From contig NZ_CM004509.1 of NCBI RefSeq assembly GCF_001693435.1, forward strand, positions 2,046,001-2,110,000: a stretch of DNA of 64,000 nucleotides, in the 5' to 3' direction. Both the position numbers and the translations under genes were made by a program. Shown here one piece after another: positions 9,188-20,877 of the stretch. This DNA is from Gilliamella sp. wkB7 (GTDB lineage Bacteria; Pseudomonadota; Gammaproteobacteria; Enterobacterales; Orbaceae). The notes under the pieces are model-generated. The model saw only the letters and a list, made by a program, of their open reading frames with translations, was not told the DNA's origin and made no database searches. The number at the start of each line of letters is the position of its first letter. Position 1 is the stretch's first letter.

Positions 9188-10219
9188 ATGCAAGAAATAA
9201 AGAAGCGTAAAACTACTGGACAGATTACTTTATTCGATGTCGCTAGATATGCGGGTGTCGGAACAATGACCGTATCTAGAGCTTTACGAACTCCAGATCG
9301 AGTTTCAGATAAACTTCGTCAAAAAATTCAAATTGCTGTCGATGCTTTAGGATATAAACCCAATGTTGCTGCAAGTTTGCTAGCCTCCGCATCGGCAAAT
9401 CGAGTCATTGCAGTTATCACACCCAAAATATACGATCATTCAGCTCAACTATGGTTAAATTCGCTTCAAACACACTTAGCAAAAGAGGGGTACACAACCT
9501 TACTTATTGAATCTTATCATTATTATAATTTTGAATCACAAATGTTAGATGCTTTATATAGTCATAACCTTGAAGCAATATTACTATTTCAAGTTGAAGA
9601 TGAAAGTTTTATTAAGCAAATTTTACAAAATAAAATTGTTCCTATTTTGAATATTGGTAAAGATTATGATGGATTAACTAATATGGATGTTGGAATAGAT
9701 GATAGTTTGGCTATGTATATGCTCACTGAGCATGTCATTAAAAAAGGTTATCAACACATTGGGTTACTTTGTGCTAATCAAGAATATCAAATTTTTCAAC
9801 AGCGTCTACACGGCTGGTATAAAGCCATGTTAGCTTATCATCGCCCTACACATCGAGTTATTAATGCTGCTAAACCAGCCAATTTTAGTACTGGAAGTGA
9901 GTTATTACCCGATATGTTATTAAATTGGCCAGAACTAGACGCATTAATTTGTACAACTGATGAATTAGCTTGTGGAGTCCTATATGAATGTCAGCGTCGA
10001 CATATTCGAGTACCTTATCAATTAGCTGTAACTGGCTTTGGTGATAATGAGTTTAGCCAAGTGAGCTTTCCTGCATTAACAACGGTCGCTTTACCGTATA
10101 AAGAAATCGGTGAATATTCAGCCTCTCTGCTGTTAGATAATTTAAAGAATAAAAAAGTAACACATGAAACAGATTTATCAGCGTTAGCACCAGTCGTTCG
10201 ATTGCGAGCGAGCGTTTAA
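9188..10219 (+). CDS. LacI/GntR-type transcriptional regulator
   Basis: LacI-family repressor of 343 residues. An N-terminal helix-turn-helix (ITLFDVARYAGVGTMTVSRAL, about residues 13-33) is followed by the hinge helix region (ALGYKPNVAASLLAS), then a periplasmic-binding-protein-like effector domain ending in the family motif AVTGFGDNEFS...LTTVALP. It is closest in layout to GntR-like gluconate repressors. It is divergent from the ascorbate-family PTS operon and most likely controls it through the palindrome at 8948-8961. Start ATG follows GGAATGAAAG. Confidence 0.88.
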   Translation: MQEIKKRKTTGQITLFDVARYAGVGTMTVSRALRTPDRVSDKLRQKIQIAVDALGYKPNVAASLLASASANRVIAVITPKIYDHSAQLWLNSLQTHLAKEGYTTLLIESYHYYNFESQMLDALYSHNLEAILLFQVEDESFIKQILQNKIVPILNIGKDYDGLTNMDVGIDDSLAMYMLTEHVIKKGYQHIGLLCANQEYQIFQQRLHGWYKAMLAYHRPTHRVINAAKPANFSTGSELLPDMLLNWPELDALICTTDELACGVLYECQRRHIRVPYQLAVTGFGDNEFSQVSFPALTTVALPYKEIGEYSASLLLDNLKNKKVTHETDLSALAPVVRLRASV

Positions 10220-10254
10220 ATAGCTTAATAAGATAGGGTATTTAAATTATTACG

Positions 10255-10359
10255 TTCGACCCGTACCTACGGTCGGTTTTCATCTTCTAACATATGGATA
10301 ATAAAAAACTACTCAATGAGTAAGCTTTTTTATTTAATTTTGGTCGGCAAGAGAGGATT
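10255..10359. repeat. Left flanking direct repeat of the siderophore island
   Basis: This 105-bp stretch matches 19503-19610 at roughly 85 percent by eye. It includes a decayed copy of the tRNA-Pro terminator (AAAAAACTACTCAATGAGTA) and the last 19 bases of tRNA-Pro. The copy at the other end adjoins the intact tRNA gene, so the pair brackets about 9.25 kb of foreign-looking DNA. Confidence 0.75.
10341..10359 (-). other. tRNA-Pro 3'-end fragment (attachment-site-like)
   Basis: TGGTCGGCAAGAGAGGATT differs by one base from the 3' end (CCA and acceptor/T-arm side) of the tRNA-Pro at 19592-19668. The rest of the tRNA is absent here, as expected of an attachment-site remnant left by integration at a tRNA gene. 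Confidence 0.6.
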
Positions 10360-10371
10360 ACTCGCATTGCA

Positions 10372-10425
10372 TTAGCTATATAGCAAATAGCCTTATTATT
10401 CTAAGAATATTTGCTACATAGCTAA
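10372..10425. repeat. Long imperfect inverted repeat just inside the island
   Basis: Arms of 18 bases (TTAGCTATATAGCAAATA at 10372-10389 and its complement at 10408-10425, 17 of 18 matching) are separated by 18 bases. No gene is attached. It could be a recombination site, a transposon remnant or a structured RNA. Confidence 0.5.
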
Positions 10426-10709
10426 CGACAGATTTGCAAAGTCAGAAAACTATTAGCAAAAAATAGGCTCCTTTGTGCTTCAATGGCATATTTACGATCC
10501 AAACTCAGATAGGGATCGAGATAATAAAAGATGACAGCGAGACATTAATATTTTGGGGTTATTTATTACAATATGCAGAATAATACTGCTAAGCGCTATA
10601 TGGATGACGCTCTTTCCGATGAAATATACCTTTTATTACTTTTTATTACTTACTTTCTTTCTTATTTCAATTTCTAATAAATATAAATGAATAATCTATT
10701 GGAGGTTTG
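10426..10709. other. Non-coding interval within the left part of the island
   Basis: About 280 bp with no recognisable gene on either strand. No integrase or transposase fragment could be identified. Confidence 0.4.
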
Positions 10710-10784
10710 ATGACAAATAAAAGTGAAATAAAAAATGAAATTGTTCGAAAATATATTGCGGAGCCTGAACAATTGGAAAATTGA
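10710..10784 (+). CDS. Short ORF of 24 codons with a strong ribosome binding site
   Basis: An ideal GGAGG lies 5 bases before the ATG (10701-10712), and the reading frame stops after 24 residues (begins MTNKSEIKNEIVRKY, ends EQLEN). The product is not recognised. The strong initiation signal with such a short frame suggests the truncated start of a lost gene, or a small peptide. Confidence 0.3.
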   Translation: MTNKSEIKNEIVRKYIAEPEQLEN

Positions 10785-10860
10785 TACACACATCATAATA
10801 AAGCCTTACCATTTTAATCATAACTATTATAAAAATAACGACTAAAAATTAAGTAATACT

Positions 10861-11020
10861 TATTATAATCAAATGATAATAGTTATCATTAAACTTGATT
10901 ATGCTTTTTTTGAAGATTTTGTACACCAGCATTATCCAATATCTATTTTAGAATGGGTTTTTTGCTCCAAAAAAGTAACAGTGGATAATAATTGATGAAA
11001 AAAACTTTGTACTTTTGTGG
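10861..11020 (+). repeat. Duplicated Fur-box promoter segment, copy 1
   Basis: About 150 bp nearly identical to 13188-13345 upstream of fyuA. It includes the Fur box, the TTTTTTTGAAGATTTTGTAC stretch and GTAACAGTGGATAAT. It carries the fyuA initiation region too: ATG at 10995 opens a 13-codon frame starting MKKTLYFC that resembles the fyuA signal peptide start and then stops at 11034-11036. The fyuA control region therefore appears to have been copied in front of the MFS gene. Confidence 0.75.
10872..10890. promoter_or_regulatory. Fur box upstream of the MFS siderophore transporter
   Basis: AATGATAATAGTTATCATT has 8-bp inverted arms and matches the Fur consensus (GATAATGATAATCATTATC) closely. 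It implies iron-dependent repression of the MFS gene. Confidence 0.75.
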
Positions 11021-12237
11021 ATATTTTTATATTTAATGGTGGCGTTCTTTTGAAACTTATATTTGCAATTGGCTCATTTTATTTTGTTCAAACATTAATC
11101 GGTGGTATTGTCTTTCAAGCGATACCGGCCTGGCTACGGAGTCATAATGTGGATTTGTACACAATTGGTTTAGTGTCACTTGCTATGATTCCTTGGACAC
11201 TTCGAGTACTCTGGGCGGGTGGCGTTGAGCGTTATAGAGTCACTGCATCTGGGAAAATTCGCAGCAAACAAATTGTCATTACAGGACAAGTGGCTCTGGC
11301 GGTGATATTAATTGGCCTATCATTCATTCATGAAAATATGTTCATCACACTAATCTCACTATTAATTTTATTATCATTAGTTTGTTGCACGAGTGAGATT
11401 GCTTGTGATGCTTATATGATTGAGAATTTAAATTCAAAATCATACGGTATCGGCAATGGATTACGAATTGGATGTGGTTATTTAGGAATGGCAGTAGGCG
11501 GTGGTGGGTTAATCTATCTATGTGATAAATGGGGATGGCAATTCTCCTTACTTGTTTATAGTGGATTACTACTCTTTTTATTGCTACCTTTGTTATTAGC
11601 ACCGAGTATCAATCAGCTTCCTGTTACAGAAAAAAGCTATCAGAGACCATCTCTCATTAAAACACTAAAGCAACCAATGATGCTAAAGGCGATCGTTTTA
11701 GTCTTTTTCTTTGAGATTAGTGGTCGTTTAATTTCATCTATGCTATCTCCTTTTGCGATTGACGCCGGACTTTCTTTAGAGAATTTAGGCAAAGTAACCA
11801 GTTTTGGCGGTGCTGCTTGTGGGATGCTAGGCACTTTATCAGGTATGCTCTTTATCCGGATTATAGGCTATCGCTGGGCACTCTTATTGGCGACCTTATT
11901 TAAATGCTTGTCAATCAGTTGCTTTATCATATTAAGTCTTCAGCCTGATATAAATCCAATAGGGCTTATTGTTAGCTATCTGTTTTTTAACTATACTTTT
12001 TCCGTGGGCTTAGTTTGTCTTTACTCGTTCCTAACCACACAAGCATCGTTGAAGCAAGCTGGATTAGATTTTACATTATTTCAATGCGGAGCAGCGCTTG
12101 CTGCAGGATGTTCTGGTTATATCGGTGGTATAGTTGCTCATTATATGGGTTACGTTACACTCTTCAATCTTACTTTAGGCTGTGCTTTATTCGTACTTAT
12201 TTTTTTATATCGAAGCTCAATCTTAAAAGCAGTATAG
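11017..12237 (+). CDS. MFS transporter, RhtX/FptX/YbtX-like (siderophore-associated)
   Basis: Inner-membrane MFS protein of about 400 residues with some 12 helices. The opening FVQTLIGGIVFQAIPAWLRS and PWTLRVLWAGGVERY are in the style of the RhtX/FptX siderophore permeases and YbtX of the yersiniabactin locus. The longest frame starts with GTG at 11017, exactly where the duplicated promoter segment ends. An alternative TTG at 11050 with GGTGG 8 bases upstream is equally plausible and would start just before helix 1. It is convergent with the AraC regulator (8 bp between stops). Expression is probably set by the Fur box at 10872-10890. Confidence 0.75.
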   Translation: MDIFIFNGGVLLKLIFAIGSFYFVQTLIGGIVFQAIPAWLRSHNVDLYTIGLVSLAMIPWTLRVLWAGGVERYRVTASGKIRSKQIVITGQVALAVILIGLSFIHENMFITLISLLILLSLVCCTSEIACDAYMIENLNSKSYGIGNGLRIGCGYLGMAVGGGGLIYLCDKWGWQFSLLVYSGLLLFLLLPLLLAPSINQLPVTEKSYQRPSLIKTLKQPMMLKAIVLVFFFEISGRLISSMLSPFAIDAGLSLENLGKVTSFGGAACGMLGTLSGMLFIRIIGYRWALLLATLFKCLSISCFIILSLQPDINPIGLIVSYLFFNYTFSVGLVCLYSFLTTQASLKQAGLDFTLFQCGAALAAGCSGYIGGIVAHYMGYVTLFNLTLGCALFVLIFLYRSSILKAV

Positions 12238-12245
12238 ATTTTGTA

Positions 12246-13175
12246 TTAATTGCAACGATAAGCATGAGGTGTGACACCAAACACCTCAACAAATCGTCTG
12301 GAGAGATGACCAGCACAGGTAAAGCCACATCGAATTGCAATGTCACTGATGGTTAATGTGCTTTCATTGAGTAATTTTGTCACCTGTTGCAAGCGATAGT
12401 TGATAATATAGCGGTGTATACCAATATTGAACATCTTTTTAAAGTCTCTATTTAATTTAGACTCACTCACTCCAATAACTTTAGCAATATCTTTTATGAT
12501 TAAATGAGTTTGAAAGTGCTCGTGTATAAATAATTGTGCATTTATTACATTTTTGCGATCTCGACCAGTTAAGTTGCTCCTCATTGGTTCTCCATCTGTC
12601 GATGAGGAGTATTTTAATTGTTCTAATGTTAACCACAGCGCGTTAAGGCTTAATCTCTGTATATTGAGTAGTGATAAAGCATCAGAAGATCTTCTGGCAG
12701 CTAGCAATCGTTGTGCTATATCTTTGAGGACAGGTGTTAGTGTTAAACGCCAAATACAGAAATTAGGTGAAGAAAATTGCATATTAGCACGATAGCTATT
12801 TAGTGAGCGCTCATTGAATATCTCTAATAACTCGTCGGGACGGAATTGTAACAATATGATGTTATAACAGTAATTAGCAGGAAAAAAATCAGTGCCATAT
12901 ATGGTATCGTGTGAGTAAGAGAGATAGACTCTATTGGGTTGATAAGACACGACTGATTTAGATCCATGTATATGATGATGCACAGCCCCATTGAGCATAA
13001 ACACTAATGATAAATGCTTATCAACCTTTGTGTTATTTCGAATATCTTGTAACGGAGCCATTTCTACGAAGCCAGCATTAAGCAATCCTTGTATATTAAA
13101 CCATTCGGTGTTTTCAAAGAGTTGTTTGTCTTTTGCCAGTTTGGGAGTATTTTTACTATAGCGAATGGTTTTCAT
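12246..13175 (-). CDS. AraC-family regulator, YbtA-like
   Basis: AraC/XylS-type activator of 309 residues. The N-terminal half is a ligand-sensing domain. The C-terminal 100 residues hold two helix-turn-helix motifs (IKDIAKVIGVSESKLNRDFKKMF and ISDIAIRCGFTCAGHLSRRFVEVFG). In the yersiniabactin system the equivalent YbtA activates receptor and transporter genes when ferric siderophore is bound. Here the gene is divergent from fyuA with a 149-bp intergenic region containing a Fur box, which fits such a role. Confidence 0.82.
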   Translation of the reverse strand: MKTIRYSKNTPKLAKDKQLFENTEWFNIQGLLNAGFVEMAPLQDIRNNTKVDKHLSLVFMLNGAVHHHIHGSKSVVSYQPNRVYLSYSHDTIYGTDFFPANYCYNIILLQFRPDELLEIFNERSLNSYRANMQFSSPNFCIWRLTLTPVLKDIAQRLLAARRSSDALSLLNIQRLSLNALWLTLEQLKYSSSTDGEPMRSNLTGRDRKNVINAQLFIHEHFQTHLIIKDIAKVIGVSESKLNRDFKKMFNIGIHRYIINYRLQQVTKLLNESTLTISDIAIRCGFTCAGHLSRRFVEVFGVTPHAYRCN

Positions 13176-13187
13176 CAGTCACCTCTT

Positions 13188-13345
13188 TATTATAATCAAA
13201 TGATAATAATTATCATTATCCTTAATTATACTTTTTTTGAAGATTTTGTACACCAGCATTATCAAATTTCTATTTTACAATGAGTTTTTAGCTCAAAAAG
13301 AAAAGTAACAGTGGATAATAATCAATGAAAAAAAAACTTATATAT
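13188..13345 (+). repeat. Duplicated Fur-box promoter segment, copy 2 (fyuA promoter)
   Basis: The probable parent of the copy at 10861-11020. It spans the divergent araC/fyuA promoter region and the first codons of fyuA. The segments align with only a few indels (10861 to 13188, 10981 to 13311). Confidence 0.75.
13199..13217. promoter_or_regulatory. Fur box between the AraC regulator and fyuA
   Basis: AATGATAATAATTATCATT is a perfect 19-bp palindrome close to the Fur consensus. It lies 108 bp upstream of fyuA and 24 bp upstream of the divergent regulator start. Confidence 0.8.
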
Positions 13346-15325
13346 TTGTGCGTTTTAGGTTTGTTATATAATGAGAAATTGCTGGCAGAACAAGTATCTA
13401 AACAAAGCGACCGAGAAACTAACTTTGATACTATTATTGTAACTGCAAGTAAACAATCTAATAATGCAGCATCTTCACTGAATGTATCTTCTAATACCAT
13501 TTCTCAGGCTAAACTCGAAGCCGCGGGGGTAGATAATACTAATAAACTTTCTCGGGTATTGCCCGGCTTGAATATACAAAGCAGTGGTAATTTGCTATTC
13601 CCTGCGATATCACTAAGAGGTATCTCTTCTGCTCAGGATTTATATACACCTGCAATCACATTTTATGTTGATGGCGTACCACAATTGTCGACTAATTTAG
13701 TCCAGTCTTTGATCGACGTTGATCATGTCTCCATGATGAAAGGCCCGCAAGCCACTCTTTATGGTCGCAGTGCGCAGGGCGGTATAGTTAATATTAGTAC
13801 TGCCAAGCCTAATAACCTATTTCGCGGTTACATTGATGGTGGTGGTGCTAGCCGAAAAGGCTACCATAGCCGTTTGAATCTCAGTGGTCCTCTGGTAGAG
13901 GATGTATTCTATGGCAGCATCACATTGCTGCGTCAGAAACAACCGGGGGCATTCAATAACCCATCCACTGGTTCGCAAAGATTGGGGGGATCAGATGAAA
14001 ATACGGGTAATATTAAATTCAGGTTAGCTCCGATAGCCGCACCTTGGGAAATCAATTTTAGTGCAACAGAAGATAGAACTCATTCAACTCAGGATACATA
14101 TTTAGACTATAAAAATACACACAGCCGCAAATTATTAACGTCTGCGGGTAGTTTAGATCCGCGTATGCATCGTCGTACACATAGTCAGACTCTAAATGGA
14201 AGTTATGATTTCGGCGATTGGTTACTGACGGCTAGTAGTGCTTGGCAACAACTGAAATATGAACGTCGTTTTCCTTATGGTCCTTTCTCAGCACAATCCT
14301 CAGAGCATTGGAATCAAAATACACAGGAAATTCGCGCGGCAACACAAGGCGATGACCGCTTATGGGATGGGGTATTGGGGTTATACCGACTGGATATTGA
14401 TGAAAGTCGTAAATCCAGTTCAACAGATTCTTCAGTCTCCTCGCAATCATTAGCCATTTATATGGATGGAACTTGGCATGTTTCCCAATTTGATTTGGGA
14501 GCAGGTTTACGCGCTTCTCATGATAAAGCGAAGACGCATTATGGTAAAAATAGCAACTGGTCCGCCGGGAATAATAGTGATAATCAACTCTTAGGACAGT
14601 TTTCAGCTGGTTATCTTTTAACACCGAACTGGCGTGTCTATACGCGCGTCGCACAAGGATATAAGTCTGCTGGTTTTACTATTACACCACAAGCCGGTAC
14701 TCCTGCAAAGCCTTTTGTTGCTGAAAAATCAATTAACTATGAGATTGGTTCACGCTATGAAATGGAAGATTTTCAGCTTCAAAGTGCCCTCTACTATACC
14801 CATACTCGAAATATGCAGCTTTACTCTGGTCCGATGGGTTCTCAAACATTGAAAAATGCGGGTAGTGCAAATGCCTTTGGTATTGAAGCTGATGCAAAAT
14901 GGTTATTTACAACCGGATGGGCCGCAACACTAAATGGCAATTTAGCCCACTCTAAGTTTGCCAGTAATGTAACTGCTGATGATTATGCTAATAATCGAGT
15001 TCCTTTTATTCCTAGGTATGGCGCTGGGTTTAGTGTAGATGGCTTGGTTGCAACGTCAATAGGTGCTGTAATGCCTAGAATAGCTGTGAATGTGACTGGT
15101 CCTCTTTACTTTGATGGTAGCAATCAACTACGTCAGGGTAGTTATAGTACAACTGATATTAGTCTTGGCTGGCAAATCAATGAACGAACTACTGTGTACG
15201 GTTATATCAACAATATTTTTGATAAACGCTACCGTACATACGGTTACGCCCGAGGTAATAGAGCTTTTGCTCAATTCAACGAAGGCTTAACTGCGGGCGC
15301 TAACATAAAAATTGAGTTATTTTAA
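13325..15325 (+). CDS. fyuA: TonB-dependent outer-membrane receptor, FyuA-like (yersiniabactin/pesticin receptor)
   Basis: Outer-membrane beta-barrel receptor of 666 residues that aligns end to end with Yersinia FyuA (673). A signal peptide ends near Ala21 and a TonB box (DTIIVT) lies near residues 35-40. The plug domain includes LPGLNIQSSGN, SLRGISSAQD, YVDGVPQLSTN and KGPQATLYGRSAQGG. The barrel includes VYTRVAQGYKSAG, KPFVAEKSINYEIGSRYE and TRNMQLYSGP, and ends in Phe (KIELF). It would bind ferric yersiniabactin or a close analogue and import it with TonB energy. It is the first of a fyuA-ABC-ABC run and is under a Fur box and the divergent AraC gene. The sequence is richer in GC than genes outside the island. 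Confidence 0.92.
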   Translation: MKKKLIYLCVLGLLYNEKLLAEQVSKQSDRETNFDTIIVTASKQSNNAASSLNVSSNTISQAKLEAAGVDNTNKLSRVLPGLNIQSSGNLLFPAISLRGISSAQDLYTPAITFYVDGVPQLSTNLVQSLIDVDHVSMMKGPQATLYGRSAQGGIVNISTAKPNNLFRGYIDGGGASRKGYHSRLNLSGPLVEDVFYGSITLLRQKQPGAFNNPSTGSQRLGGSDENTGNIKFRLAPIAAPWEINFSATEDRTHSTQDTYLDYKNTHSRKLLTSAGSLDPRMHRRTHSQTLNGSYDFGDWLLTASSAWQQLKYERRFPYGPFSAQSSEHWNQNTQEIRAATQGDDRLWDGVLGLYRLDIDESRKSSSTDSSVSSQSLAIYMDGTWHVSQFDLGAGLRASHDKAKTHYGKNSNWSAGNNSDNQLLGQFSAGYLLTPNWRVYTRVAQGYKSAGFTITPQAGTPAKPFVAEKSINYEIGSRYEMEDFQLQSALYYTHTRNMQLYSGPMGSQTLKNAGSANAFGIEADAKWLFTTGWAATLNGNLAHSKFASNVTADDYANNRVPFIPRYGAGFSVDGLVATSIGAVMPRIAVNVTGPLYFDGSNQLRQGSYSTTDISLGWQINERTTVYGYINNIFDKRYRTYGYARGNRAFAQFNEGLTAGANIKIELF

Positions 15326-15327
15326 GT

Positions 15328-17109
15328 TTGGCACATATAAGTTCGGGCAAAGTCATGAATATTTCTGAACCACTCAGTTTTATCCTATTAGTAAAGTTAA
15401 TGGGTAAGGCTTTTTGGATATCAATACTGACAGCAATCATCTCAACCATTATGACGCTGGTACCCATTTGGATACTTTACCTCATGGTAGAAGAACTGAC
15501 TATTGCCACAGTGTCTCTTGAACTTATCTATTCATGTCTGGCTGTGGCATTCATTGTAATGTTGCTTCGCTGGGGATTAATTGTGATTAGCCATGTTAGT
15601 GCTCATCACGGTGCATTAAAACTAGCTTATCATTTAAAGTTACATTTAACTCACAAGCTGGGATTAGTTCCTTTATCGTTTTTCAGTACTCATACAGCAA
15701 GTGATTTACGTAAAGTAATTAACGATGATACTGCCGCATTAGAAAGTTTTCTAGCTCATTTTTTGCCTGATGTAGCTTCAGCGCTTACTGTGCCGATCGT
15801 CGGATTATCATTGTTAATTTACGTAGATGCACCGATGGCGTTTACTGCCGTCCTATTATTGCCAGTGGCGGTTTGGTGCCAGTGGTTATCTATGCGACAC
15901 AGTAATGAACAAGCGCGTCAATGGGGAGAATTACAGATCAATATAGCGCAAAAGGTGAGTGAATATATCCGTGGCATTGTAGTGATTAAAAGCTTTGGGC
16001 TGAGGGCTGATTCGTTTCGTCAACTCAGTCAGACAATTCGTGATGTCGCACCTTGGATAGAAAACTACTGTAAAAAGAATATGTTTGGTTGGAATTGTTT
16101 TAATTGTTTACTTTCAAGCAATTTAGTCTTAGTGGCTCCTATTGGAGCTTGGCGCTGTTTTCAAGGGAGTTTAACACCAGTTGATTGGTTACTGTGTTTA
16201 TTGGTCGCTCCTGTGATACTTCAGCCGTTTTCACGCCTTGTATTTGCGTTTTCGGAGCAAGCCCAGCGGCAGGGCTCTTTAGATCGTCTTAATCAGATAG
16301 TTAATGCATCACAGATGATGGTATCTCATGAGATTGATACGGCGAGTTTACCAACGGGAAACCTTGTGCTGTCGTTCTCTCTCGTTTCTTACTGTTACGA
16401 TCAGCAAAAAACAGCCCTTCAAGAAGTAACCTTTAATACGTTGCCACATGGGTTAACGGCTATTGTTGGACCCAGTGGGGCAGGGAAAACAACAATTGCA
16501 CGTTTAGCAACACGATTACTTGACTGTGATAACGGTGAAATCACTTTAGGTGGGCTCAATATCCAGCATTGGCCTGTGGAAGAGTTGTTTAAACAGATAT
16601 CAATGGTATCTCAGAATGTATATCTTTTTAATGGCACAGTTATGGAAAATTTATTACTCGGCCGACCGGATGCCAATAATGAGCAGGTAATTGCAGCAAC
16701 ACAGGCAGCCTGTGCTCATGAATTTATTCTCTCTCTACCACAAGGATATGACACCCAAATTGGTGAAAATGGCGCTCGCTTATCGGGAGGCGAACGCCAA
16801 CGCCTTTCCATTGCCAGAACATTATTAAGAGATGCTCCTCTTTTAATTTTGGATGAAGCAACTGCTTATGCAGATAGTGAGAACGAGTGGCTTATTCAAC
16901 AGGCTATCTCCAATCTTTGTAATGGGCGAAGTGTTCTAATGATTGCTCATCGCCTAAAAACGGTTATTCATGCCGATCAAATAATTGTTGTCGATCAAGG
17001 GAAATTGGTTGGTCAGGGACGCCATGACGAACTGCTTTTGAATTGTCCCTGTTATTGCCAACTCTGGCAAGATATTGAGTTGGATGGAGAGAAAATAGAT
17101 GATCATTAA
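15328..17109 (+). CDS. ABC half-transporter (TMD-NBD), YbtP-like
   Basis: Fused membrane and ATPase protein of about 590 residues: six helices in the first 320 residues, then a nucleotide-binding domain. It shows Walker A GPSGAGKTT, signature LSGGERQRLSIART, Walker B LLILDEAT and the switch histidine in IAHRLK. The D-loop reads AYAD instead of the usual SALD. YbtP and YbtQ have this exporter fold but act as importers of ferric yersiniabactin across the inner membrane. The frame opens with TTG at 15328 right after the fyuA stop. ATG at 15355 is the alternative start. It overlaps the next gene by 11 bp, [10 protein letters not shown] translational coupling. Confidence 0.82.
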   Translation: MAHISSGKVMNISEPLSFILLVKLMGKAFWISILTAIISTIMTLVPIWILYLMVEELTIATVSLELIYSCLAVAFIVMLLRWGLIVISHVSAHHGALKLAYHLKLHLTHKLGLVPLSFFSTHTASDLRKVINDDTAALESFLAHFLPDVASALTVPIVGLSLLIYVDAPMAFTAVLLLPVAVWCQWLSMRHSNEQARQWGELQINIAQKVSEYIRGIVVIKSFGLRADSFRQLSQTIRDVAPWIENYCKKNMFGWNCFNCLLSSNLVLVAPIGAWRCFQGSLTPVDWLLCLLVAPVILQPFSRLVFAFSEQAQRQGSLDRLNQIVNASQMMVSHEIDTASLPTGNLVLSFSLVSYCYDQQKTALQEVTFNTLPHGLTAIVGPSGAGKTTIARLATRLLDCDNGEITLGGLNIQHWPVEELFKQISMVSQNVYLFNGTVMENLLLGRPDANNEQVIAATQAACAHEFILSLPQGYDTQIGENGARLSGGERQRLSIARTLLRDAPLLILDEATAYADSENEWLIQQAISNLCNGRSVLMIAHRLKTVIHADQIIVVDQGKLVGQGRHDELLLNCPCYCQLWQDIELDGEKIDDH

Positions 17110-18865
17110 ATTTATTCGCGCCGGTTATCAGTTGGCTGGTTATCAAGATCGTCGGTTAACGAAAGGATTATTTCTGGCGGCACTTGATGGTTGTTTATTG
17201 ACAGTAAATTATTACATTATTGCACAACTTATCCTATCCGTTTTCAATACAACCATTTCGTTACAGATAATCCTGCTAAGCACGGTCGGTTTATTGTCCT
17301 GCCTGTTGGGGCGAATATATTTAAGTAATTTGGCATTAAGCCACGTTTTTGGTGGTACTTATGCCATGATGGCTGAAGCTAGAATTCGAATTATTAACCA
17401 TCTACACGCTTTACCACTAGGTTGGTTTTCAGCTAAACGAACAGGTGATTTAAGTGTTCGTTTAACATCCGATCTTGAGCTAATCGAATGGTTGTGGTCG
17501 CATTTTTTGGCTGTCTTTACCAGTACAATAGTCACGATGCTATTAATATTGGCACTTCTATGTTGGATTGATATCTTTTTAGCTTTGCTGGTCATTATAA
17601 CGATTCCCTTTTCCTTTTGGGTTATGACATTAACACAGCGAGTCATTAGTCGTTATGATGAAAAAATGTTGGATACTGCCAGTGATGCACAAGCAGAGTT
17701 ATATGATTATATACAGGGCATTAACGTTATTCGCTGCTTTGGTCAGTTTGGTATAGCCTGGAAGCGTCTTTCTAATGCGTTGTTTCGACAATATCAAGCG
17801 CAACTGATGTTGGAAACTAAACCCTCTGCATTAGTCGCATTGTTTGGTTTTGTCTGTGAGTCCAGTTTTCTATTATTACTCGTATCAGGTGGATATTTGT
17901 TGTTTCAGGAACATTTAGATATTCAGCACTTTATCCTGATCAATTTTTTTTCACTGATTGTCTATCGACAGTTACAAATACTTGGCGATGGATTAATAAA
18001 ACTTCGATTTAGTTCACGAGCCATGGAACGTATCAAAAAACTACTGAGTGAAACACCGGTCACCACATATAATGATGGGAATTCCTCTGTAATCCCTGAA
18101 TCCAATGAAATTACTGTGCAACAGGTCAGTTTTACCTATCCTGAGCAATCCAGTCCGACCTTACAAAATATTAACTGCCACATTCATGGTAATGGCATAA
18201 CAGCTATTGTTGGTCCAAGTGGTTCAGGGAAAAGCACTTTGTTGCAACTGATTGGTCAAATGTGGATACCAAGCTCCGGTCAGATTCTTTGGGGTGAACA
18301 TGATACTAAGATAATTTCTAGTGAGATCTTACATCGCAATATTGCCATGGTATTTCAAGATGTGGTTTTGTTTTCTGCATCAGTATTTGACAACATTTTG
18401 ATGGGTAATCAGACTGCAACAACTGAGGAAGTGATTAAGGCTGCTAAATTAGCTCAAGCGGATAAATTTATTCAGCAGTTGCCCGATGGTTATCAAACAA
18501 TTCTTGGTGATAACGGTTACTCATTATCAGGCGGAGAACGTCAACGACTTTCAATTGCTAGGGCATTATTAAAAAAAGCCCCTATCATTTTATTGGATGA
18601 AGCGACAGCCAGTATTGATGCTTCCACTGAACTGGCAATACATAGAGTATTAGAAAACTTGTCTCAGCATTGTACTGTTGTAATTATTGCTCATCGTTTA
18701 AACACAATACAAAAAGCTCAGAAAATACTTGTTATGAACGCTGGATGTTTGGTGGAACAAGGGGAGCATGAGGGCTTGCTTCGCCAAAATGGTCTTTATG
18801 CTCAATTGTGGCAGCGTCAACAGCAATCGCTTTCATGGCAGCTTACCCCATCAAACGAGGAATGA
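17099..18865 (+). CDS. ABC half-transporter (TMD-NBD), YbtQ-like
   Basis: Second fused half-transporter, 588 residues, presumed partner of the preceding one. Six helices (about residues 20-300) precede the ATPase domain with Walker A GPSGSGKST, signature LSGGERQRLSIARA, Walker B IILLDEAT, D-loop SID and IAHRL. Start ATG 17099 follows GGAGAG within the end of the upstream gene. Together the two would form a heterodimer that moves ferric siderophore from periplasm to cytosol, as YbtPQ do. An export role cannot be excluded from sequence, since the fold is that of exporters. Confidence 0.82.
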   Translation: MIIKFIRAGYQLAGYQDRRLTKGLFLAALDGCLLTVNYYIIAQLILSVFNTTISLQIILLSTVGLLSCLLGRIYLSNLALSHVFGGTYAMMAEARIRIINHLHALPLGWFSAKRTGDLSVRLTSDLELIEWLWSHFLAVFTSTIVTMLLILALLCWIDIFLALLVIITIPFSFWVMTLTQRVISRYDEKMLDTASDAQAELYDYIQGINVIRCFGQFGIAWKRLSNALFRQYQAQLMLETKPSALVALFGFVCESSFLLLLVSGGYLLFQEHLDIQHFILINFFSLIVYRQLQILGDGLIKLRFSSRAMERIKKLLSETPVTTYNDGNSSVIPESNEITVQQVSFTYPEQSSPTLQNINCHIHGNGITAIVGPSGSGKSTLLQLIGQMWIPSSGQILWGEHDTKIISSEILHRNIAMVFQDVVLFSASVFDNILMGNQTATTEEVIKAAKLAQADKFIQQLPDGYQTILGDNGYSLSGGERQRLSIARALLKKAPIILLDEATASIDASTELAIHRVLENLSQHCTVVIIAHRLNTIQKAQKILVMNAGCLVEQGEHEGLLRQNGLYAQLWQRQQQSLSWQLTPSNEE

Positions 18866-18872
18866 TAACGCG

Positions 18873-18953
18873 ATGACTACTTCAACACAGATAAAATTAA
18901 ACGATTTTACACAATGTGATGTGATATATCAGGCGGTAAAACGGGAGCGGTAA
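18873..18953 (+). CDS. Short ORF of 26 codons after the ABC pair
   Basis: ATG 18873 lies 7 bases after the ABC stop. The frame begins MTTSTQIKLNDFTQC and ends AVKRER at a TAA. AGGAA overlaps the preceding stop at a usable distance. The product is not recognised. Its position suggests the start of a further operon gene cut off when the island's right end was rearranged. Confidence 0.3.
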   Translation: MTTSTQIKLNDFTQCDVIYQAVKRER

Positions 18954-19426
18954 AATTAATTCCCCGAACACAGACTCATTATGCTTATTTTTCGGTGACC
19001 GCTACAATAGTATGCCGGTTAAATTAAAACAGTGTATATTTTGCTGTATTACCGACTTCATACAATTTTATATTAAGTTCTCTGGGTATATACGGCTGGA
19101 TAAGAGCCAAATCCTATCTGCGTTTCTTTGCTTGAAAATCGAAATCTACGATACCACGATTTTGAACTGGTAGGAGATATTAATAAATAAAGTTTTCAGC
19201 TATCAGTGAGTTTAAATGACTTTGTTTTTGACTTTACATTACGAATAAAAGTGTCTGTCAGTTTCATCGGGTCACATCTTTTTGTTAGAATAATGACTTC
19301 ATTTTGGTCATCAAATCTTCTTGGATATCAAGGGACGACATAGGACTTGCAAGAATAGTGGCGTTTTGTAACTAATTGAATAACATGTTTTATGTATTTA
19401 GTAGGGATTTATGAACACTAAAAAAG
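18954..19426. other. Non-coding right part of the island
   Basis: About 470 bp without a gene I can support. No transposase, integrase or RNA gene was recognised. It is probably decayed DNA between the truncated operon and the right-hand repeats. Confidence 0.45.
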
Positions 19427-19429
19427 GTT

Positions 19430-19453
19430 GTCGGCGGAGAGGATTACTCGCAT
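19430..19453. repeat. Inner right repeat matching the island's left boundary
   Basis: GTCGGCGGAGAGGATTACTC followed by GCATT matches 10343-10368 (GTCGGCAAGAGAGGATTACT, then CGCATT) with one substitution and a small deletion. Unlike the tRNA-Pro gene itself, both these copies continue into ACTCGCATT. They therefore look like a matched pair of island ends. Confidence 0.6.
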
Positions 19454-19473
19454 TTCATGCTCGCTCTGCGGGT

Positions 19474-19489
19474 CGTTGCTAAAGCAACG
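19474..19489. other. Hairpin in the GC-rich repeat next to tRNA-Pro
   Basis: CGTTGC-TAAA-GCAACG is a perfect 6-bp stem inside a GC-rich stretch (19441-19520) that contrasts with its surroundings. Its function is unknown. It is part of the repeat block that ends the island. Confidence 0.4.
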
Positions 19490-19502
19490 TTGTCTCGCTG
19501 CG

Positions 19503-19610
19503 CTCGACTCGAACCTCTGGTCGGTTCTCATCCTCTCAGAATGCAGATAATAAAAAAGCCTACTCAATGAGTAAGCTTTTTTATTTAAAATTGGTCGGCG
19601 AGAGAGGATT
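19503..19610. repeat. Right flanking direct repeat (contains tRNA-Pro terminator and 3' end)
   Basis: The counterpart of 10255-10359. It runs from CTCGACTCGAACC through the terminator into the 3' end of the intact tRNA-Pro. Confidence 0.75.
19552..19582 (-). terminator. Rho-independent terminator of tRNA-Pro
   Basis: A 14-base stem, AAAAAAGCCTACTC with GAGTAAGCTTTTTT (one mismatch), around AAT. It lies 9 bases past the tRNA 3' end on the minus strand. Confidence 0.8.
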
Positions 19611-19668
19611 CGAACCTCCGACCCACTGGTCCCAAACCAGTTGCGCTACCAAGCTGCGCTACTCGCCG
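19592..19668 (-). tRNA. tRNA-Pro (anticodon UGG)
   Basis: 77 bases including an encoded CCA. The 5' end reads CGGCGAGTAGCGCAGCTTGG. The anticodon loop TTTGGGA gives UGG, and the T-arm is GGTTCGAATCC. The acceptor stem CGGCGAG pairs with CTCGCCG. The 3' end is the target duplicated at the left island boundary. Confidence 0.95.

Positions 19669-19728: not shown

Positions 19729-20877
<1,149 letters not shown>

Follow-up and report, generated by a model that had tools for sequence, protein, structure and literature searches.

In the 64,000-nucleotide stretch of Gilliamella sp. wkB7 DNA considered here (the window; G000:C1:2046001-2110000 of a 2.90 Mb one-contig genome, positions being given in window numbering), an island of 9.25 kb at 10255-19610 is inserted in the gene for tRNA-Pro(TGG) (19592-19668, minus strand) and carries five intact genes for a siderophore uptake system. 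These code, in order, for an RhtX/FptX-like major facilitator superfamily (MFS) transporter (11017-12237, plus strand, the start being ambiguous between the GTG at 11017 and a later TTG), an AraC-family regulator (12246-13175, minus strand), a FyuA-type TonB-dependent receptor transcribed divergently from it (13325-15325, plus strand), and two ATP-binding cassette (ABC) half-transporters, ABC1 (15328-17109, plus strand) and ABC2 (17099-18865, plus strand). For ABC1 the listed start is a TTG, while an ATG at 15355 is the start common to the other four carriers of the island: Gilliamella sp. N-G2 (G045), G. apicola ESL0177 (G042), the Gilliamella metagenome-assembled genome G004 (81% complete) and G382, a member of the same family but of a different genus. 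Between ABC2 and the tRNA gene lie about 0.7 kb without an intact gene. The five genes, two Fur boxes and the tRNA-Pro gene had been read from the letters alone in an earlier note on this DNA, and open reading frames (ORFs), motif search and tRNA call confirm all of them.

With respect to the receptor, the best match among solved structures is FyuA (4EPA, entered under the name pesticin receptor), with an E value of 3e-225 across residues 33-666, the next-best solved receptor reaching only 6e-10. Its full-length identity to enterobacterial FyuA is 52.8%; against the FyuA proteins of Enterobacteriaceae, Serratia symbiotica and Pantoea sp. At-9b, identity is about 53-55%. A homologue search over 7990 scored candidates yielded 276 homologues at E 1e-60, and among the best 120 of these 276 three are 88-99% identical to the island receptor, one metagenomic protein is 67% identical and the others are 52-55% identical, the named ones being mostly FyuA or TonB-dependent (siderophore) receptors. 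A tree of 33 rows was made from 23 of these 120 homologues, seven local or named FyuA proteins and three other receptors. In it the Gilliamella and G382 rows group with the 67% protein inside the FyuA set with support of 99/100, on a branch that is long (0.77 changes per column). Two of the three other receptors fall outside the FyuA set, and the third, a G002 row that is 37% filled and has a branch length of 10, sits at its edge with an unsure placement. Phylogeny, which the earlier note had named as a check, groups the receptor with FyuA proteins, and the comparisons argue strongly for its membership in the FyuA clade.

Only FyuA is close to its counterpart in the Yersinia high-pathogenicity island (HPI). 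ABC1 is 32% identical to YbtP, ABC2 31% to YbtQ, the MFS protein 33% to YbtX and the AraC protein 22% to YbtA (31-33% to the FyuA-adjacent AraC proteins of Serratia symbiotica and Pantoea sp. At-9b), so that 'Ybt-type' is right for the receptor and an analogy for the other four, whose proposed Ybt identities do not hold beyond the family level. Against the RhtX/FptX model the MFS protein scores 127 bits, under the cut-off of 356, and E. coli YbtX gets 126. In a tree of 21 ABC rows the branches are long and forks stay open, so that ABC1 is at most a candidate YbtP orthologue; at E 1e-140 kin of ABC1 were found in one of 369 class genomes, namely the window's own, and relatives at 45-49% occur in Brenneria, Pseudomonas, Achromobacter and others.

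The island is flanked by a direct repeat (10255-10359 and 19504-19610) that takes in the final 19 nt of the tRNA. The left, att-like copy consists of tRNA-Pro downstream sequence and holds at 10341-10359 a 19-nt copy of the tRNA 3' end with one mismatch, the right copy runs into the tRNA 3' end itself, and positions 10303-10359 and 19554-19610 are 91% identical. Empty sites exist in G011 and G006: their flanks agree with the window at 88.6-93.5%, a single copy of the repeat stands in the corresponding place, and the 9.25 kb are absent. Repeats of a tRNA 3' end on both sides, together with relatives in which the site is empty, are hallmarks of a tRNA-integrated island; a working integrase was not found at the island, only a relic. 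An additional att-like scar of 22 nt (19437-19458) is 95% identical to 10351-10372, and with up to one mismatch its 18-nt core has just two occurrences genome-wide. Att-like copies about 158 bp apart were also seen beside tRNA-Pro in the G382 stretch (L059+L060 27553-28153) and in L056 of G048, the latter genome having repeated copies without the island. Judged by their sequence, such repeated att-like copies are scars of repeated integration at tRNA-Pro.

The earlier note had held that no synthesis gene is present. This is true of intact ones, as no intact synthesis ORF of at least 100 amino acids (aa) was found between 10255 and 19610, but not of fragments: at 18926-19096 (plus strand) lies a YbtE-like relic of a salicyl-AMP ligase gene, 57 codons long and containing a stop, which is 46-50% identical to YbtE and 47% to the salicylate ligase of the same genome (tblastx 46% and 47%; tblastn E 1e-11 and 5e-13). 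In each of the five carriers, matching to the ligase starts 50-60 nt after the ABC2 stop, at YbtE residue 173-176, whereas the later decay differs among carriers, the fragment of G382 being longer (YbtE residues 175-519, one stop). The shared start and the still alignable DNA suggest that a single deletion took place in an ancestor and that the copies then decayed separately. Next to the ligase relic, at 19091-19267 on the minus strand, there is a second relic, which corresponds to the N-terminus of a tyrosine integrase of the HPI type (47% identity over 59 codons, one stop, E 1e-15). It lies on the tRNA strand, and this strand, beside the tRNA, is the usual place for such an integrase. The two relics together suggest that the island is a decayed siderophore locus. 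On the evidence of the ligase fragment, this locus evidently used to include a salicyl-AMP ligase gene, in part at least, and may have made a salicylate-capped siderophore. A clean capture of the uptake genes alone was also considered and is rejected because of the ligase relic. Accordingly, the description of the island as a stand-alone uptake cassette at tRNA-Pro holds, but not as the product of a simple capture: the island is what remains of a decayed locus, and it has moved within the family.

On the left side of the island (window 10201-11050 and its counterparts) no match to ybtE, the genome's own ligase, ybtS or integrase was found at E values up to 1, and none of the best 25 matches of the relic search (E to 0.03) came from there. 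A short remnant left of the MFS promoter (10710-10800) is, by eye, common to N-G2 and ESL0177. Beyond its ligase fragment the G382 island has an AraC-like ORF, a second MFS-like ORF (by eye) and three tandem att-like repeats.

As the ligase and integrase of the island are already relics, the whole island might be a non-functional remnant heading for loss. This is very improbable, given that the five uptake genes are open in 5/5 carriers with pairwise dN/dS ratios (Nei-Gojobori, five genes and ten pairs) of 0.026-0.370. Below 0.25 are 48 of the 50 values, and the two above it (0.37 and 0.27) both come from the closest pair, the window and G004. The uptake genes are thus under purifying selection.

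The receptor was found in 5/44 genomes of the family, belonging to two of its five genera, and in 4/35 genomes of the genus (G000, which is the window genome, G004, G042 and G045). In a sample of the order it was present in 4/394 genomes, all four within this family, and G134, the other genome of G382's genus, gave no receptor match. In the window, G004 and G382 the island occupies the tRNA-Pro site beside tgt; G042 and G045 have it at another tRNA-Pro, which neighbours tRNA-His. This second site lacks the island in G000, as does the tgt site in G045. In the window, this tgt gene (19729-20877, name assigned from sequence) flanks the island on the right and a gene for a LacI-type regulator (9188-10219) on the left. 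Between the window and G042, G045 or G382, the five island genes show a synonymous divergence (dS) of 0.07-0.40, and the flanking tgt, queA, LacI and EIIC genes, where found, one of 1.05-2.30 (queA only in G382 and G004; LacI and EIIC absent from the G382 stretch). This large contrast indicates horizontal transfer, also across genera, and vertical inheritance from the common ancestor of these carriers is rejected by the dS values together with the two insertion sites. For the window and G004, island dS (0.04-0.09) and flanking dS (0.06-0.22) are alike, and in this pair the island looks vertically inherited.

The MFS gene and fyuA are each preceded by a copy of one 113-nt promoter region (10860-10972 before the MFS gene and 13187-13299 between araC and fyuA, both plus strand, 90% identical), and the same duplication is found before both genes in N-G2 and G382. 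Across the window, a search with up to two mismatches for TGATAATNATTATCA, which we take to be the Fur box consensus, gave six matches against 1.36 expected and a maximum of four in 100 shuffles. Only those at 13201-13215 (an exact match) and 10874-10888 (one mismatch) have fewer than two mismatches. For promoter-like and terminator-like sites of a general kind, counts in the region did not exceed those in shuffles (30 vs 32.6 and 6 vs 6.4, respectively). The island genes would be controlled by Fur and by the AraC protein. The two Fur boxes and the 53% identity across the whole receptor also make it improbable that the receptor has shifted to another metal complex, e.g. a zinc or copper chelate, and that the island serves a different metal, even if the long branch of the Gilliamella receptors and their relatives and the annotation of YbtX as a yersiniabactin-associated zinc MFS transporter would agree with such a shift.

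Outside the island, the window genome has nine condensation domains in two nonribosomal peptide synthetase (NRPS) clusters. The first comprises a protein of 4960 aa with five condensation, four adenylation (A) and four carrier domains and a thioesterase (condensation domains at C1:2852490-2864786), and no salicylate gene was found among the six neighbours scanned. The second, at G000:C1:236207-261888, is intact and codes for a salicylate synthase/aryl-AMP ligase fusion (its salicylate synthase scoring 467 bits with TIGR03494 vs a cut-off of 325), a heterocyclising NRPS, a terminal reductase domain, a TonB receptor, an RhtX-type MFS protein and an AraC protein. Three of its A domains share 49% identity with that of HMWP2, taken as cysteine-specific, and hardly differ from it in the letters at the positions taken as the pocket, and four condensation-type domains align to the cyclisation (Cy) domains of HMWP2 at 30-38%. 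No polyketide synthase was found among the cluster 2 proteins scanned. Within the NRPS at G000:C1:239191-248886 (L039:3192 onward) the three A regions are 94-100% identical in ten 50-residue windows, unlike the condensation domains, which differ; all A domains look cysteine-specific. Judged from its genes, the window genome probably makes an uncharacterised salicyl-polythiazoline compound of yersiniabactin's class.

This raises the possibility that in the window genome the island is a second receptor and import route for the siderophore of cluster 2, whose salicylate synthase, HMWP2-like A domains and Cy-like condensation domains represent yersiniabactin-class chemistry. Such a role is conceivable but rather unlikely, as cluster 2 has an AraC protein, an RhtX-type MFS protein and a receptor of its own, the last being 20% identical to FyuA (best solved match FyuA, E 6e-24, followed by the enantio-pyochelin receptor). 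Moreover, G042 and G045 have the island without cluster 2, and G001 has the salicylate fusion and NRPS without the island. Among the 35 genus genomes the fusion occurs in G000, G001 and, with stops, in G004, where the stops may be partly errors because this assembly is only 81% complete; G014 (74% complete) has two condensation domains, one of them in a frame resembling that of cluster 2. Cluster 2 and the island do not travel together.

The earlier note had proposed piracy of siderophores made by neighbours, with the reservation that synthetases elsewhere in the genome might produce the ligand. The reservation is half borne out, in that a salicylate/cysteine NRPS exists but comes with its own receptor, and piracy is to this extent weakened for the window genome. 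It fits best in G042 and G045, as no condensation domain was found there at E 0.001 and no IucA/IucC synthetase in 5/5 carriers. Use of a foreign siderophore thus appears well supported by gene content for G042 and G045, and no more than likely for the window genome.

We consider it probable that the island is a decayed yersiniabactin-type locus that has lost synthesis and kept the import of a ferric salicylate/thiazoline siderophore. Its ancestor would have been a yersiniabactin-type siderophore locus carried by a tRNA-Pro integrase. The synthesis genes would then have been lost, leaving behind the salicyl-AMP ligase fragment, while a complete import line bearing Fur boxes (FyuA-type receptor, ABC pair, MFS protein and AraC regulator) was retained. 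From this we infer the ligand class, transport, regulation and benefit: the island would take up a ferric salicylate/thiazoline siderophore that it does not make itself, the ligand having to come from other cells in the carriers without synthetases (G042 and G045) and being, in the window strain, either foreign or its own salicylate/cysteine product taken up through a second route. The producer-turned-user island would then have moved on within the family. Several observations weigh against this explanation. The four proteins at 22-33% identity to their HPI counterparts suggest that the substrate may be a relative of yersiniabactin rather than yersiniabactin itself, the integrase relic is present in only 2/5 carriers (the window and G004), the flanking-gene dS values are near saturation, though their contrast with the island dS is large, and, as the window genome has a salicylate/cysteine NRPS, import need not be piracy there.

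A further step, for which we see only a modest chance, would be a siderophore economy in the bee gut, in which some Gilliamella make the salicyl-polythiazoline siderophore and island carriers take that compound from co-residents. If so, a mobile uptake-only island would shuttle between this genus and another one of the family, and the window genome would combine the locus of a producer with that of a former producer.

The HPI-type yersiniabactin locus of E. coli PAR (NZ_CP012379.1) likewise has FyuA, two ABC half-transporters, an RhtX-like MFS protein and an AraC regulator, and is inserted in a tRNA gene beside an integrase; the island relics match HPI YbtE and integrase. In contrast, the island is without intact irp1, irp2, ybtS, T, U and E, resides at tRNA-Pro with an integrase relic instead of at tRNA-Asn, and has the order MFS, AraC, FyuA, ABC, ABC, with ABC, MFS and AraC proteins only 22-33% identical. 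A cassette on plasmid pPAT9B01 of Pantoea sp. At-9b (L040) is also similar, with a FyuA at 54%, a divergent AraC gene and two ABC genes. No synthetase is listed in the 26 kb examined (12 kb each side; the gene table is incomplete), and it is possibly another uptake-only Ybt-type cassette. It differs in being plasmid-borne, in having the ABC pair across the AraC gene and no directly adjacent MFS gene, and in an ABC identity of 34%. According to one report, Vibrio harveyi and V. rotiferianus have the piscibactin receptor FrpA without synthesis genes, which is attributed there to horizontal transfer (PMC5812596). The case is a precedent for uptake-only retention, an irp-type siderophore receptor being present without synthesis genes in two Vibrio species, but what is described there is the receptor, whereas here a whole uptake set with its regulator lies on a tRNA island with a synthesis relic.

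For Gilliamella, the available portion of a study of 147 strains lists NRPS and siderophore clusters among the gene clusters (PMC9598484). A description of the island was not found in literature on Gilliamella or Frischella siderophores, fyuA or siderophore cheating (subscription journals being mostly uncovered), nor in the accessible parts of PMC12990990, PMC11092227, PMC9598484, PMC13293248, PMC10470603, PMC5812596 and PMC8461471, and no literature joining Gilliamella with yersiniabactin was found. Public-goods theory has long predicted that siderophore synthesis is lost while uptake is retained, and here the transition can be read in the DNA: the carriers share a ligase relic, their uptake genes are open and under selection, relatives have empty sites, and the island has spread horizontally. 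The bee gut is a tractable gnotobiotic system, and the island makes siderophore exploitation among bee symbionts directly testable by gene deletion.

Concerning the carrier from outside the genus, G382 would be a Frischella, judging by its family membership and by seven condensation domains in frames whose lengths resemble what we take to be those of the colibactin cluster. Seven condensation domains, with frame lengths resembling this colibactin-like set, also occur in a Gilliamella genome (G021:C18:123077-167105). A colibactin cluster is reported for F. perrara in the accessible part of PMC8461471. In G042, the tgt/tRNA-Pro site, which is the island position in the window, contains four tandem ORFs of 132-196 aa (L055:8595-11502), all starting with MKL[VI]KAEEIEFFYI.

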